Shown: piece by piece, positions 6,818 through 22,119 of the stretch
How positions within the stretch are numbered: the stretch's first letter is position 1
How the letters are laid out: each line of letters begins with the position of its first letter
Virus record (IMG/VR): IMGVR_UViG_3300050132_000139
Location: 1-33,435 of that record
Length of the DNA stretch: 33,435 nt
Reading direction: 5' to 3' (one strand)
Source of the DNA: a virus
The notes under the pieces: generated by a model
Told to the model about the DNA's origin: nothing
The model's input: the letters and a program-made list of their open reading frames with translations, nothing else
Database searches by the model: none
Position numbers and translations under genes: made by a program

Positions 6818-8167
6818 TTACATTCCTGCTTCTCTCAATGCCGCCTGTTGAGCCGCATTGGGAGTCCATCCTTGCTTATTGGAAAAATCTTTCACGGTTG
6901 TACTCCTACCTATTGTCGGTGGAGTAGGAGTTTGCATAGCCGCAAGAGGACTATCAGCAGACATTCCCACACTCGGAGAAAGTTTGTTATCAATACTCGT
7001 CAGTAGTTGATTCGTTATTTTCTGTTCATTCAATTGATTTTGGGCTGCATTGAGACGATACGAAGTATCAACCCCGAGCAATCCTCCGATTCTAACCATT
7101 TCATTAGAAGCAATTCCCGAGCGAGTTAAAGCGGCAGCAACGATAGGCCCGTTTCCTCTATCTTTAGCATTCTTCTGGCTCTCAATAAGTTCATCTAATG
7201 GACTCTTTGACTTTTCGGCGGCAAACTCTTTCATCACCGCATTAAACACATCGGAATTTCCTCCCGAAAGTCGTTCGGCGTATTTACGGATGGCATCTTC
7301 ATAAACCTTCTGTTTCTCTTCGGGGGTGCCGTTTACCATGCCCACCAGTGTATTTTGTAGTGCCACATCAGCCCCGAATTGCTTAAGCATTCCAATATCT
7401 CCCAACCCCCGGTTGGAGCGTTCTGCCGAAGCAAGATTGGAGATATAATCGGCTTGTTTGCTATAGAACCCCGACGAAGATTTTCCTCCCCCAATATGCA
7501 ATAAGTCCATAACTCCGATAAGCCATTGACCGAATGGAACTATGGCGTGAAGAGTAAGAATAGAAATCTGCTCTTTCAATTCTTTGAATTGAGCAGTGAG
7601 TTCAATTACCTGTTTGATTTCCTCTTCGTTTATTCCAGACTCCGCTGGCCCCTGTAAAAGTTGTTCTCGTTTGTATAAAAAATCTGCTCCCGCCTTACCC
7701 ATAGATTCACGAAAAAACATCTGACTCTCGGTTAACCCTTTACCAACAGAGGCAGCAAGCGTCTTTCTCAGAGCAGTATCAAAATTGAAATTGGCAAAAT
7801 CTGATTCTGAAATACCAAATGCTTTCAATTTGGACATTTTGTCCGCATCCGTGTACGCATCCTTCATGTACTCTTGGAACTTTCCCGATGCTTGTACCAA
7901 ATTGCTTGCGCTTTTTCCTACCGATTCCATTATTCGGTTCAATTGAATGGCTCGGTCAAGAGATACCCCCAGTTCATCCGATGCTTTTTCCGCCTCTTTA
8001 GCAAACTCTACTGCGGAACTAATCATTTCCGAAAGGGCACCAATTCCGAGACCAGCCAACAAAGCACCTTTGAGTTCATTAACTTGCCCCATGATAGCAG
8101 CTATTCCCCGTTGGAATCCAACGCCATCAATTCCTACGCCAATTTTGATTTGAGGACTGCCTGCCAT
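6818..8167 (-). CDS. Short tape-measure protein
   Basis: The 449-residue protein has the layout of a tail tape measure. The N-terminus is IGVGIDGVGFQRGIAAIMGQVNELKGALLAGLGIGALSEMIS, a common 'D...F...l..i......' start followed by an Ala/Gly hydrophobic segment. Long amphipathic helices follow, with one hydrophobic stretch around residues 205-225 (ILTLHAIVPFGQWLIGVMDLL) and a disordered Ser/Pro/Thr C-terminal region. In this class the length sets tail length at roughly 1.5 angstrom per residue, so a tail of about 65-70 nm is expected. It directly follows the chaperone candidate. The start at 8167 sits one base after the upstream stop. Confidence 0.8.
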   Translation of the reverse strand: MAGSPQIKIGVGIDGVGFQRGIAAIMGQVNELKGALLAGLGIGALSEMISSAVEFAKEAEKASDELGVSLDRAIQLNRIMESVGKSASNLVQASGKFQEYMKDAYTDADKMSKLKAFGISESDFANFNFDTALRKTLAASVGKGLTESQMFFRESMGKAGADFLYKREQLLQGPAESGINEEEIKQVIELTAQFKELKEQISILTLHAIVPFGQWLIGVMDLLHIGGGKSSSGFYSKQADYISNLASAERSNRGLGDIGMLKQFGADVALQNTLVGMVNGTPEEKQKVYEDAIRKYAERLSGGNSDVFNAVMKEFAAEKSKSPLDELIESQKNAKDRGNGPIVAAALTRSGIASNEMVRIGGLLGVDTSYRLNAAQNQLNEQKITNQLLTSIDNKLSPSVGMSADSPLAAMQTPTPPTIGRSTTVKDFSNKQGWTPNAAQQAALREAGM

Positions 8168-8168
8168 A

Positions 8169-8774
8169 TTATGCTCCTACGGGTTCCTGTTTCATATTCT
8201 TCACCATCTCTAAATCTTCGTCGGTCATGATGGTGATTGCCCCACACTTTTCAAGATGCCGAAAGTAATCTTGAAGTGCTCGGGCAACAGAAACATTCAA
8301 CGCTTCCGATTGACTGTATCCCAATTCCGAAGTCAGGGTATTTAACACCGAATGCGTCCAGTGAGTCCCCGATTGCTCTCTCTTTTCGGACATTTCAAGT
8401 TCCCAATACTTTGGGATGATAACTCCGCTTTTGAGATACTCTTTGAACAGCGAAAATTTGGAAAACAAATCAAACCCTTTTTGTTTGGCTTGTTTTCGTA
8501 TTGATTTTCCCCATTTGTTTGTCCACGCCTTAAACTCTTCCCCATCGTTAATAAACTCAAGAAACTCTTCATAAGTCCTTGAGCAGATAGTAACCCCGAG
8601 AATAAGGTCGTCAATCCCACCCATTGTGTCGGGGTCTTCCGAAGAAAACCCACAACCAAATCTTTGCATGAGAAAGATATGCCCCAAACAAAGCGGCTTC
8701 AACTCCACACCCAAAACTACATACGGCTCGGGAATAAGTGCTTTGGTGTAGTTTTCCAGTTGATTGGATTTCAT
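8169..8774 (-). CDS. Probable tail assembly chaperone
   Basis: The 201-residue protein starts at ATG 8774 (SNQLENYTKALIPEP), chosen because it overlaps the tail-tube stop as TAATG; a longer reading upstream would run over the tail gene. It is charged and helical, with KPLCLGHIFLMQRF early and SQSEALNVSVARALQDYFRHLEKCGAI near the end. Its position between tail tube and tape measure is the classical chaperone slot (gpG/gpGT in lambda). I see no clear slippery sequence for a programmed frameshift, so this would be a single-frame version. Function is from position only. Confidence 0.6.
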   Translation of the reverse strand: MKSNQLENYTKALIPEPYVVLGVELKPLCLGHIFLMQRFGCGFSSEDPDTMGGIDDLILGVTICSRTYEEFLEFINDGEEFKAWTNKWGKSIRKQAKQKGFDLFSKFSLFKEYLKSGVIIPKYWELEMSEKREQSGTHWTHSVLNTLTSELGYSQSEALNVSVARALQDYFRHLEKCGAITIMTDEDLEMVKNMKQEPVGA

Positions 8775-9196
8775 TATACTTGGAAGAGGTTGGGGTAACG
8801 AGACAGTTTGAGGGTGACTCGGGTGGCAGAAGTATTGCTTCCAACGATGGAAACATTGTCCACGAGCCAATAGCCAGAGATGGCAGGATACACGTTATCC
8901 TGCACATAGACCCATTGAGATACGCCGGGATGGGCAACAAAGGCGTTGCCTACATTGTCATTGAAGGTAGCTCCACCGAATTGAAATCCAGTGCCTCGTT
9001 GCGTGGCAACGTATGTGAAAGTGGCTTCCTCACGGAAGTCCCAGTACACTTTAGAGACAGTGGTATCGCCGCCGTCTCTTACGACTTCTGAATCCGCAAT
9101 GATTGCGTGGTCCCTTGTCTGGAAGGAACCCACGGCATTGGATACAATGCTATAGACACCCCAATTGATTCCGACTCCACGGTACGTGTTTATTAT
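8774..9196 (-). CDS. Tail-tube protein paralogue with apparent ATA start
   Basis: The reading frame from 9196 encodes about 140 residues closely related to the protein at 9936-10325: NTYRGVGINWG / NTYHGVAVNFG, GSFQTRDHAIIADSEVVRDG / GQFQTNDHGYTSDTEVIRDG, and endings with NxLVDxVxIxxSNxxAxRVTxKLSxYP. Homology starts at the very N-terminus, where the paralogue has ATG; here the aligned codon (9194-9196) is ATA. The first standard start, GTG at 9133, would drop about 20 conserved residues. An in-frame TAG lies four codons upstream of the ATA. The endonuclease gene stops only 4 bases before it. Role: tail-tube or tube-cap subunit, inferred from paralogy and position. Confidence 0.7.
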   Translation of the reverse strand: MINTYRGVGINWGVYSIVSNAVGSFQTRDHAIIADSEVVRDGGDTTVSKVYWDFREEATFTYVATQRGTGFQFGGATFNDNVGNAFVAHPGVSQWVYVQDNVYPAISGYWLVDNVSIVGSNTSATRVTLKLSRYPNLFQV

Positions 9197-9200
9197 AGAG

Positions 9201-9887
9201 TTACCCTACTCTTTCTAAGACGTTCCTACATTGTTTATTAACGGCATCGTACCGCCAGAACTTCTTAGGCTTAAGAATGTCTATTATTTTGTTTTGCCTA
9301 ATCAGGTCTTTCTGTTGTTGTCTTTTGTGGTATTTAGAATCATACTCCAACACAACATTATGTTCTTCATCGTACCCGTCAATATAGAACAAATCGGTAT
9401 CTGTATGAATTTGATAATTTGGTTCAAACTTGAATCCCAAATCATTCCATTTTGACAACAATTCCAATTGACCTCTGTCGGTTTTGACTTTCAACCATTT
9501 GGAATTGTGAAGACCTTCTATATGTTTCTTACGTATATCAGGTCTGTGCATTGCTAGTTTTATGCAACCAGATAATTTTGTGTGATATTCTGGGTTAGCA
9601 TATCGTATGATACGTTCTTTCTTAGCAGCACCAGACATTTTTTCTCTAGTAAAAGGAGTGGTATTTTGTTTGATTAGTGATAACCTATCACAAAATTCAT
9701 CGCTTCTTTTACCAGCAGCAAATGTTTTTCCATAACTCGGATTACAATCCCCGAGTTTGGAACACGAATTACATATAGAATTGTGTTTGCTGCTACGATA
9801 TAAACTATCTTTATTGCAAAAATAGATTATGCATCCGCAATGCGGACAATTCTTAAAAAATGAAGTTGGTATCCTTCTGTTTCTCAT
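9201..9887 (-). CDS. Free-standing homing endonuclease, Vsr/PD-(D/E)XK-like, with zinc ribbon
   Basis: The 228-residue protein starts at ATG 9887 (MRNRRIPTSFF); a TTG start at 9923 is possible but that stretch matches a promoter. Domains: zinc ribbon CPHC ... CNSC with 21 residues between the pairs (residues ~13-40); a GKTFAAGKRSDEF / TPFTREKMSGAAKK region resembling NUMOD-type DNA-binding repeats; and a C-terminal nuclease core YIDGYDEEHNVVLEYD followed by YHKRQQQKDLIRQNKII. The D...ExD...H pattern fits Vsr-like or PD-(D/E)XK nucleases; the subfamily is uncertain. It is inserted between two paralogous tail-tube genes, abutting the downstream one. Confidence 0.82.
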   Translation of the reverse strand: MRNRRIPTSFFKNCPHCGCIIYFCNKDSLYRSSKHNSICNSCSKLGDCNPSYGKTFAAGKRSDEFCDRLSLIKQNTTPFTREKMSGAAKKERIIRYANPEYHTKLSGCIKLAMHRPDIRKKHIEGLHNSKWLKVKTDRGQLELLSKWNDLGFKFEPNYQIHTDTDLFYIDGYDEEHNVVLEYDSKYHKRQQQKDLIRQNKIIDILKPKKFWRYDAVNKQCRNVLERVG

Positions 9888-9935: not shown

Positions 9936-10325
9936 TCATGATACTATAGAAGGATATTGAGTCATCTTGACTGTTACTCGAACTGCGGCAACGTTGGAAC
10001 GCTTTACGTCAACGCTATCCACCAACCAATTGGTTCCTGCGATGGCGGGATAATTGGCGTCCGTCACTGTGGCGATGGCACCAACAGCATTGACGGTGAC
10101 TGTGGCAGTGCCAGAAGGCCCACCCGCAGCACTGGCGACGTAATCAAACGTGGCGGTCTGCTTAAAGGCATAGAAGGTCTTTTCAACCTCTGCCCCAGTA
10201 CCGTCCCGAATGACTTCCGTGTCAGAAGTATAACCGTGGTCATTGGTCTGAAACTGACCCACGATTGACGTGATGCCAGCGGCAAGACCAAAATTAACTG
10301 CTACTCCGTGATATGTATTTTGCAT
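9936..10325 (-). CDS. Major tail-tube protein candidate
   Basis: The 129-residue protein starts at ATG 10325 behind AAAAGGA and an AT-rich spacer, a leader type shared with other structural genes here. It is Thr/Val/Ala-rich and beta-dominated, ending with WLVDSVDVKRSNVAAVRVTVKMTQYPSI. A second copy of the same family lies at 8774-9196. Place in the order (after a tail-terminator candidate, before chaperone and tape measure) points to the tube subunit. Which of the two paralogues is the major one cannot be decided from sequence, but this copy has the normal start and strong ribosome site. Confidence 0.66.
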   Translation of the reverse strand: MQNTYHGVAVNFGLAAGITSIVGQFQTNDHGYTSDTEVIRDGTGAEVEKTFYAFKQTATFDYVASAAGGPSGTATVTVNAVGAIATVTDANYPAIAGTNWLVDSVDVKRSNVAAVRVTVKMTQYPSIVS

Positions 10326-10764: not shown

Positions 10765-11184
10765 TTAGGACTGTTGGGCCAAGAACTGAACGTTACCTTG
10801 CCCGAATTGGTTTGCGGCACCCGAGCCAGCAACGAATGGGGGATAACTTCCAACTACTTTGCCTGCAATGGTTGGAATACTTCCAGACCAAGGGATGATA
10901 GCGATGGCACCGGGAATCAAGATTGCTCCGATTGGGGTGGTCGCCGAACTGCCTGTGACCTGAATCACGGAAGCACTAAACACCGTTGGGTCGTTATAGA
11001 CCGTTAATTGAATAACGTCTGGGAACCCGCCCGTGTCAATAGTCGTCCATGAACTTCCAGTTACCACAGTGTTGCCAGCAATGAAATTGCTGCTACTCGT
11101 TTGAGTATTGATATTGGCGGATACTGTCGTGCGAACTGAGTCCACCACACTCGTTACGGTCGCATTTGTTGAAAGTTGGTTCAT
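10765..11184 (-). CDS. Structural protein of unknown role
   Basis: The 139-residue protein starts at ATG 11184 behind AAAAGG and overlaps the end of the upstream endonuclease gene by four bases. It is rich in Ser/Thr/Gly/Val with almost no charged residues, contains ASVIQVTGSSATTPIGAILIPGAIAIIPWSG, and looks like an all-beta virion protein. It lies between connector-type genes and the tail terminator candidate; a minor decoration or neck role is possible. I do not recognise the family. The intact start and ribosome site show that the upstream nuclease insertion did not damage it. Confidence 0.6.
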   Translation of the reverse strand: MNQLSTNATVTSVVDSVRTTVSANINTQTSSSNFIAGNTVVTGSSWTTIDTGGFPDVIQLTVYNDPTVFSASVIQVTGSSATTPIGAILIPGAIAIIPWSGSIPTIAGKVVGSYPPFVAGSGAANQFGQGNVQFLAQQS

Positions 11185-11738
11185 ATTGAATTACCTTTTA
11201 AGACATCCGTTTGTTGTTTTGTTTCCGAATTGATTCGTATGAACGAGTATAACGGATTGTCTATACGTTTGAAATACTCGATTATATTGTTTTGTCGAAT
11301 CAAATCCTTTTTCTGTCGGCATTGTCTCTTATGATAGGGAGTATCATATTCGTAAACAACGTTGTTTACTATATCATACCCGTCCACATAATACCCAATG
11401 TCTTTCAAAAAATAGTCAGTAAGTATCGAAGCATTCAATGCCTCAAAATACTCGGCGGCACCTTTGTCTTCTCTCGCCGTAATTCCCAATTCTTGGAGTC
11501 GTGTTACCTTTTCTATTCTAAGGTTTCTTCTACGCTCATCCGTGTACGATTGGCAAAGATTTTCTCGTGTCTGTTCCGAGATGATTCTTCCTACCATCCA
11601 CGGAGTTTCTCTTTTTACTCCTTTGAATATACAACTTCCACATAGAGTGTTATGCTTCTTAGCATACCAAAACCCAGTCCTGTGGCTATAGGTTTGTTTC
11701 TCACCACATTTCGGGCAGTGTTTTGTATATTCTTTCAT
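11181..11738 (-). CDS. Second Vsr/PD-(D/E)XK-like homing endonuclease with zinc ribbon
   Basis: The 185-residue protein starts at ATG 11738, one base after the upstream stop. It is a relative of the enzyme at 9201-9887: zinc ribbon CPKC ... CGSC with the same 21-residue gap, and a C-terminal core YVDGYDIVNNVVYEYD followed by YHKRQCRQKKDLIRQNNII. The middle part differs and is shorter (residues ~45-100, GRIISEQTRENLCQSYTDERR). No separate promoter is obvious, so it probably rides on late transcription. It is inserted between a tail-completion candidate and a structural gene without disturbing either. Confidence 0.82.
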   Translation of the reverse strand: MKEYTKHCPKCGEKQTYSHRTGFWYAKKHNTLCGSCIFKGVKRETPWMVGRIISEQTRENLCQSYTDERRRNLRIEKVTRLQELGITAREDKGAAEYFEALNASILTDYFLKDIGYYVDGYDIVNNVVYEYDTPYHKRQCRQKKDLIRQNNIIEYFKRIDNPLYSFIRINSETKQQTDVLKGNSI

Positions 11739-20815: not shown

Positions 20816-21247
20816 TTATTGTTGAGTCGTGATGAATTGTAATAGCTTAGTCCTCTCTTCATCATTGCACTGATGCAATTTACGCTTGACCAGCCACGCC
20901 TCTCTCATTGTGTTGTTGGGCTTGACCTTGCCCGCTCTACACTTGCTCTGACGTATGACTGACCGAAGCGAGGTAGCAGTGAGTCCATCTTGTTTGATAC
21001 GCTTGAGCCATCGTCGTTGTTCTTGCTTGGTCATATGCCGTAACTCATACATGCAATGCACGTCAACGCTATCATCATGCTTAATGCCCTTTATTTCTGA
21101 GGATAGACGTATATGCTGCCACTCAATAGACGGATATTTTGCTACCAATTCTCGCATTGAATACTTGGATAACAGCACCCGAATGCCATTGAGATAGGCA
21201 TTGAACGAGCGATGGTATTGCTGTTGTAGTTCAGCTATGGATTGCAT
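20816..21247 (-). CDS. Unknown helical protein, possibly DNA-binding
   Basis: The 143-residue protein starts at ATG 21247 (MQSIAELQQQYH), overlapping the end of the HNH gene by 17 bases; a longer reading would overlap it more. It is basic and helical, with KQEQRRWLKRIKQDGLTATSLRSVIRQSKCRAGK, where 'GLTATSLRSVIR' looks like a recognition helix. No family recognised. It could be a regulator of the packaging/late genes just downstream. Confidence 0.6.
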   Translation of the reverse strand: MQSIAELQQQYHRSFNAYLNGIRVLLSKYSMRELVAKYPSIEWQHIRLSSEIKGIKHDDSVDVHCMYELRHMTKQEQRRWLKRIKQDGLTATSLRSVIRQSKCRAGKVKPNNTMREAWLVKRKLHQCNDEERTKLLQFITTQQ

Positions 21248-21788
21248 TATGATTAGAAACTCGTTTGCACAACTCAATGAAATAGTCATCGCTTTTACCC
21301 CACTTCATTTCGTTTATGTCTTTATCAACCCACTGAACATTGCCTTCTACATATCCAACCGAAGAGTCAATTCGGTCAAGAGATGCATTACCATCTGTGA
21401 GCCAGCTTTTGGATTGGAACTGCAATGGCATTCCACTCAATGCACATTTCCTTTTCTGTTTTAGGAATAAGCACCAAACATATTCAATAGTAATAGAGAA
21501 TTCCAACTTGCGAGCATTGGCATTTGCCTTACATCGGTTGAAATAGGTGGCGGATACTTCGCCATATCCTTTCCATTTTGGGCTTTTAGATTGAATTGGA
21601 GTTGTGGGGTGATGTGTAACATTGGTGCATGTCATTGTGCGTTTTATGTCCCCGCCAGCCGATATTCCTGTATCTCCACAATCGCAAGTCCAATCCCAAT
21701 ACGCTACATTGTTTTCCATACGATTTAATCCAATGACAGTTCGAGTTCCAAATTTCTTATCCTTCAAATCTATTACTGGTCTTCCCAT
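21231..21788 (-). CDS. HNH endonuclease with MGRP..DL..KKFG leader domain
   Basis: Start ATG 21788 was chosen for the GGGAG site five bases upstream. It gives 185 residues beginning MGRPVIDLKDKKFGTRTVIG, the usual opening of a phage HNH group. A CxCG knuckle follows (WTCDCGDTG) and then the nuclease part: KCALSGMPL, ASLDRIDSSVGYVEGNVQWVDKDINEMK. That C-terminal signature is typical of HNH proteins of the 'sLDRiDs..GY..gNvqwv' type. It is embedded in a block of small early-type genes. A homing or selfish role is likely. Confidence 0.87.
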   Translation of the reverse strand: MGRPVIDLKDKKFGTRTVIGLNRMENNVAYWDWTCDCGDTGISAGGDIKRTMTCTNVTHHPTTPIQSKSPKWKGYGEVSATYFNRCKANANARKLEFSITIEYVWCLFLKQKRKCALSGMPLQFQSKSWLTDGNASLDRIDSSVGYVEGNVQWVDKDINEMKWGKSDDYFIELCKRVSNHNAIHS

Positions 21789-21789
21789 A

Positions 21790-22119
21790 TTATCTCCCAT
21801 TCACAATTCTCAATGACATACTCAACTCTTGTGCCACCCGCTTTACTTCTTTGGAGAGGTTAACATGAACAATTCCTGTTGCCTTTGCGATTGACCTGAT
21901 TGTATTCGGAACACCATAAATGCCGCCTATATCATACCCTGCTGCATACGTTGTAGCAATGAGTGAAGCAGTTGGGTTGCGACTGGTAAGCACATAATAG
22001 ACCATCCAATCAAGTAATCGGCGTATATTCGTGTCTTCCACCACAGTCGGAGAATCTTCATTAGGATATTGAAAATCTGCTGTCTCAACTGGATTGCCTT
22101 CGTCATCCTGCGCTTGCAT
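21790..22119 (-). CDS. Probable HTH protein
   Basis: The 109-residue protein starts at ATG 22119 (TTG at 22134 is an alternative). The acidic N-terminus (QAQDDEGNPVETADFQYPNEDSPTVVED) is followed by a helical core with LIATTYAAGYDIGGIYGVPNTIRSIAKATGIVHVNLSKEVKRVAQEL, in which the last part has the spacing of a helix-turn-helix. Possibly a transcription regulator or small terminase-like DNA binder. Not recognised beyond that. Confidence 0.6.
   Translation of the reverse strand: MQAQDDEGNPVETADFQYPNEDSPTVVEDTNIRRLLDWMVYYVLTSRNPTASLIATTYAAGYDIGGIYGVPNTIRSIAKATGIVHVNLSKEVKRVAQELSMSLRIVNGR

Follow-up and report, generated by a model that had tools for sequence, protein, structure and literature searches.

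Free-standing homing endonucleases of the seg and mob type in phage T4, together with HEG islands near tail operons, are among the closest described parallels to the locus examined here, since in both a lone, co-directional nuclease gene lies between conserved phage genes (PMC2988022, PMC10448857). The likeness extends to the exchange of nucleases at one site and to a recombination boundary beside the nuclease. In contrast to seg and mob, the 3' end of the nuclease family found here supplies the Shine-Dalgarno sequence (SD) of the next gene and often stops 4 nt before its start. Short distances between a stop codon and the following start codon favour translational coupling, and the coupled E. 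coli pairs galT/galK and rplK/rplA (both +3) resemble the present junction, which is likewise short (+4) and has its SD in the upstream gene (PMC12548453). Unlike in those pairs, the start position in our locus reads ATA and not AUG, GUG or UUG. Genes with rare start codons offer a further comparison: pcnB uses an AUU start, as does infC, and an rpoS allele of E. coli carries ATA in place of ATG, so that in each case, as here, the codon is one base from AUG. The gene described below differs from these in being a natural phage gene behind a nuclease, with a putative AUA start. Finally, phage SPP1 makes two forms of a tube-type protein, gp17.1 and gp17.1*, in unequal dose (PMC6316719); the SPP1 forms come from one gene via a frameshift, whereas here there are two genes.

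The window (the whole 33,435-nt stretch of DNA that was analysed, in whose coordinates all features are given) is a phage contig from IMG/VR and belongs to an uncultured phage. In order of transcription, its minus strand encodes a first tail-type paralogue (P1), a nuclease, a second tail-type paralogue (P2), a small conserved gene and a probable tape measure gene. The features of this locus are as follows.

9936..10325, minus strand: P1, the first tail-type paralogue; ATG start, 129 aa, own SD AAAGGAT
9201..9887, minus strand: free-standing endonuclease of homing type, 228 aa long, with a zinc-finger-like CxxC N-terminus and the core DGYD...EYDxKYH
9204..9212, minus strand: Shine-Dalgarno-like AGAGTAGGG within the nuclease 3' end, 7 nt before the ATA; predicted pairing -4.9 kcal/mol
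9197..9212, minus strand: small hairpin whose loop holds the SD (AGAGT-AGGGTA-ACTCT), -4.4 kcal/mol
9206..9208, minus strand: TAG in frame upstream of P2, read from the sequence
9194..9196, minus strand: first ATA, the expected P2 start position; at +4 after the nuclease stop, where homologous junctions have their start, and opposite the P1 ATG in the alignment
9191..9193, minus strand: second ATA, which by gene length corresponds to the P2 ATG of contigs L001 and L004
9131..9133, minus strand: GTG, where the P2 frame has its first usual start codon, read from the sequence
8774..9196, minus strand: P2, the second tail-type paralogue, its open frame counted from the first ATA and ending in TAA at 8776-8774; homologues in L001, L004 and P1
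8169..8774, minus strand: next gene, placed where a tail assembly chaperone would stand; no SD, and a start ATG that overlaps the stop of P2 (TAATG)
6818..8167, minus strand: probable tape measure gene, with a weak tape-measure match

An earlier, sequence-only reading of this DNA had named P2 a tail tube protein. Gene order agrees with that name, as P2 lies between the head-tail genes and the tape measure gene, where a tail tube gene is expected. Searches of Pfam, PHROGs and NCBIfam gave no family match for P1 or P2. The structure model of P2 is all-beta but of low confidence (pLDDT 48.6), and most of the structures that match it best, though none significantly, are tail and baseplate proteins of phages. 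Based on gene order, this model and these matches, P2 is probably a tail tube protein.

The anatomy proposed for the start of P2 was borne out. After the TAG at 9208-9206, the P2 frame reads GGT AAC TCT ATA ATA AAC ACG TAC. Four bases, CTCT, separate the nuclease stop TAA (9203-9201) from the ATA at 9196-9194, where the sister gene has ATG; a second ATA comes next, at 9193-9191. The starts of the two paralogues align without gaps (MQNTYHGV in P1, IINTYRGV in P2). The P2 frame remains intact across 140 codons, and P2 is best described as a separate gene with ATA at its expected start position. Codons one base from ATG make up 9 of the 64, and a near-ATG triplet at a given place is by itself not rare; the ATA is more than chance because ATG stands at the other starts of window genes that we inspected and because it occupies the place of ATG or GTG in homologous nuclease junctions (see below). 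P2 thus combines a conserved open frame without a usual start and a properly spaced SD before AUA, which is the pattern of a non-AUG start. Judged by how long P2 is in L001 and L004, the start would be the second ATA, but we favour the first as the start position because it agrees with both the +4 spacing of homologous junctions and the paralogue within the window.

The frame contains no ATG, GTG or TTG before the GTG at 9133-9131, 21 codons downstream of the ATA. The sequence-only reading was right that this is the first usual start codon, but it overstated the loss that a start there would entail as about 20 conserved residues. Two residues upstream of the GTG are invariant in six of six relatives (G10 and G16 of P0001), and about one third of this stretch matches the sister gene, a share slightly lower than that over the full-length protein (43%). 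A P2 that begins at the GTG and lacks its first 21 codons would have the merit of a usual start codon, but it would drop both invariant glycines, no SD is visible ahead of the GTG, and every relative starts at or near the ATA position. We regard such a start as very improbable.

In IMG/VR, contigs related over P1, P2 and the downstream gene were limited to L001 and L004; INPHARED held no close relatives by DNA or by P2 protein, and no relatives were found in bacterial genomes. P2 is 53% identical to its homologue in L001, 48% to that in L004 and 43% to P1 of the window. It is present in all three phages, and the codons that differ between L001 and L004 are mostly synonymous. L004 represents an empty site, in which the P1 stop is followed by 34 nt and then by P2 (ATG CCC AAA GTA CAT GGC), its ATG preceded by AAAGGAGGTAT (GGAGG). 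In L001 the P1/P2 junction holds a different nuclease that ends 2 nt before the ATG, and P2 keeps that ATG. Both contigs also encode a close homologue of the nuclease found in the window, in L001 after P2 and in L004 ahead of P1. Since the junction is empty in L004, holds another nuclease in L001 and holds this nuclease in the window, it is an insertion place for different nucleases; as the three known phages differ there, the ATA junction is not a conserved regulatory device. Along L001 (1144-8435), at least four nuclease genes lie between consecutive head and tail genes, the one in the P1/P2 junction among them.

A nuclease placed between two tail genes, with TCTATA at both ends of the insert, could also reside in a group I intron, with P1 or a short exon spliced to P2. 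This candidate was rejected: an Rfam search gave no intron match at gathering thresholds, P1 is complete with its own stops, and the empty site of L004 holds two separate genes. Additionally, the insert is almost wholly coding and so has no room for an intron core, which leaves this explanation with a negligible probability. The nuclease accordingly lies outside an intron or intein, between conserved genes. Its DGYD...EYDxKYH core is conserved in 19 homologues, and the protein bears weak resemblance to DUF559 (below cut-off), to restriction-endonuclease-like proteins and to Vsr. Membership in the Vsr-like or EDxHD group did not reach significance, with no PDB sequence match and an E value of 0.89 for 1vsr. 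The structure model (pLDDT 79) has a restriction-endonuclease-like C-terminus, and its best structural matches are mostly nucleases of this kind, none of them significant. Movement into nuclease-free sites is indicated by its different places in the window, L001 and L004 and by a recombination boundary in two further loci (L046 and L038, below). Insertion, movement and exchange at one site agree with the earlier naming of a homing nuclease: the protein behaves like a free-standing homing-type endonuclease, for which cleavage and homing are predicted.

Two scans collected 25 and 63 viral loci (overlapping sets) that encode nuclease homologues with the conserved core, and we compared 56 distinct nuclease ends, some of them from more distant relatives. 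In nine of these 56 junctions the ATG or GTG of the next gene lies exactly 4 nt past the nuclease stop (TAAtccgGTG, TAAagcgATG, TAAccagATG, TAAtacaATG, TAAtccgATG and others). The SD in +4 junctions often falls within the last nuclease codons, as in L035 (TTAGGAGGATAAAGCGATG), and its predicted pairing in six of them ranges from -4.0 to -10.2 kcal/mol. The first ATA of the window occupies this same +4 place. A general enrichment of +4 spacing after nucleases relative to other gene pairs is weak (6 of 45 against 11 of 230, p 0.04, by a crude automatic count), and the argument therefore relies on the homologous junctions themselves.

The +4 spacing also bears on a +1 frameshift at the nuclease stop, in which GGG TAA C would be read as GGG and then AAC, fusing the nuclease to P2. 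The frame fits, with entry into P2 after its upstream TAG, and SPP1 makes its long tube protein via a +1 shift at CCC UAA (PMC6316719). The frame relation, however, follows from the +4 spacing and is equally present in junctions with an ordinary ATG; a nuclease-tube fusion is implausible, and slippage from GGG to GGU should, in our judgement, be weaker than that from CCC to CCU. We consider a frameshift highly improbable.

The end of the nuclease element, GGGTAACTCT, is common to the window, to L089 and L090, where ATG follows, and to L046 and L038, where ACG follows. The L089 copy (2490-2850, in a 369 kb phage contig) is a frame-broken nuclease whose GGGTAACTCT junction still gives ATG. The ATG after this shared end in L089, the single base that separates ATA from ATG and the single assembly all speak for a base error or a minority variant in the metagenome assembly, with ATG or another usual start in the phage itself. 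On the other hand, neighbouring genes of the contig are intact and show no sign of poor quality, and L046 and L038 indicate that start changes at this junction do occur. These two loci come from separate assemblies and have ACG at the +4 place (L046:2867 and L038:1495). They are near-identical from well upstream, through the nuclease and up to 33 nt past the junction, after which identity falls to about 80%; the downstream gene differs by 47 synonymous and 5 non-synonymous codons. The same codon in two independent assemblies, within near-identical sequence that then diverges, makes a base error an unlikely source of the altered codon in L046 and L038. An error in the window we hold to be quite unlikely, though worth weighing. 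A junction with an altered codon at the start position appears to move along with the nuclease. As other in-frame ATGs lie close by (at -8 and +13, counted from where the nuclease stop ends), L046 and L038 do not prove the use of ACG; homologues of their downstream gene begin near, not exactly at, the ACG.

The pairing predicted for the SD of the window, at its 7-nt spacing, is comparable to that of most genes of the same phage. The hairpin that presents this SD is a peculiarity of the window, being absent from the L046 and L089 junctions, and 17 of 200 shuffled sequences fold equally well; translating ribosomes would open it. The predicted pairing and the homologous +4 junctions agree with the proposal that P2, which follows the free-standing homing-type nuclease immediately, is in a position suited to SD-assisted initiation or reinitiation. 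Judged from the relatives, a nuclease-borne, coupled start context of P2 is well supported.

We propose that the P1/P2 junction received a copy of a free-standing homing-type nuclease gene, which replaced the leader of P2, so that the nuclease 3' end would provide the SD and stop 4 nt before the P2 start. The start codon has probably changed at this junction, either by point mutation from ATG to ATA or by co-conversion of the junction with the nuclease. With the SD paired or close by, a fraction of the ribosomes that end nuclease translation would initiate or reinitiate on AUA, at the first ATA and possibly at the second too, and the level of P2 would then be below that of P1 and, as the sequence-only reading suggested, might depend on the nuclease. 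The second tail gene is thus probably made weakly, from an ATA start behind a mobile nuclease. Against this reading count the ATG of P2 in both L001 and L004 and the very weak initiation on AUA in reporters. Taken as a whole, this reading (a real P2, a nuclease copied into the junction, a genuine ATA and likely weak, coupled AUA translation) stands in our estimate about evenly between right and wrong.

The strength of AUA initiation is central to a further explanation, in which the ATA is genuine yet leaves P2 effectively silent, its start broken by the insertion or by a later mutation, with decay beginning and P1 alone building the tube. In reporters AUA is very weak, at most 1% of AUG (Hecht 2017, as quoted second-hand in PMC12864459), while the rpoS allele with ATA lowers RpoS at most about 5-fold (PMC12864459). 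P1 has an intact ATG and SD, and SPP1 is able to build tubes with one of its two tube proteins (PMC6316719). Against silencing stand the intact frame of P2 and its conservation in three phages with mostly synonymous change between two of them. The gene at 8774-8169 probably depends on ribosomes leaving P2; because this conserved gene overlaps the P2 stop and has no SD of its own, some translation of P2 is expected and complete silence is less likely. We consider silencing rather unlikely, with a real share of the probability.

Weak translation of P2 from ATA would, if true, make P2 a phage structural gene that starts naturally with AUA, and would show clearly how a selfish nuclease can capture the translation start of its neighbour. 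The +4 junction with its SD inside the nuclease suggests a way for such nucleases to enter between essential tail genes while these stay expressed, and altered start codons would reveal the consequences of junction change. Gene annotation would miss P2 or shorten it by 21 codons. A broader version, in which the nuclease family carries a portable junction (SD, stop and next start) and ATA or ACG travel with it between phages and reset the dose of the adjoining structural gene, which would come to depend on nuclease translation, seems doubtful to us.

Further nuclease genes are present elsewhere in the window. A second gene of the same broad type lies at 11181-11738, with its TGA overlapping the ATG of the next gene (ATATGA), and two more open reading frames, at 1065-1598 and 21231-21800, resemble HNH-type nucleases by motif only.
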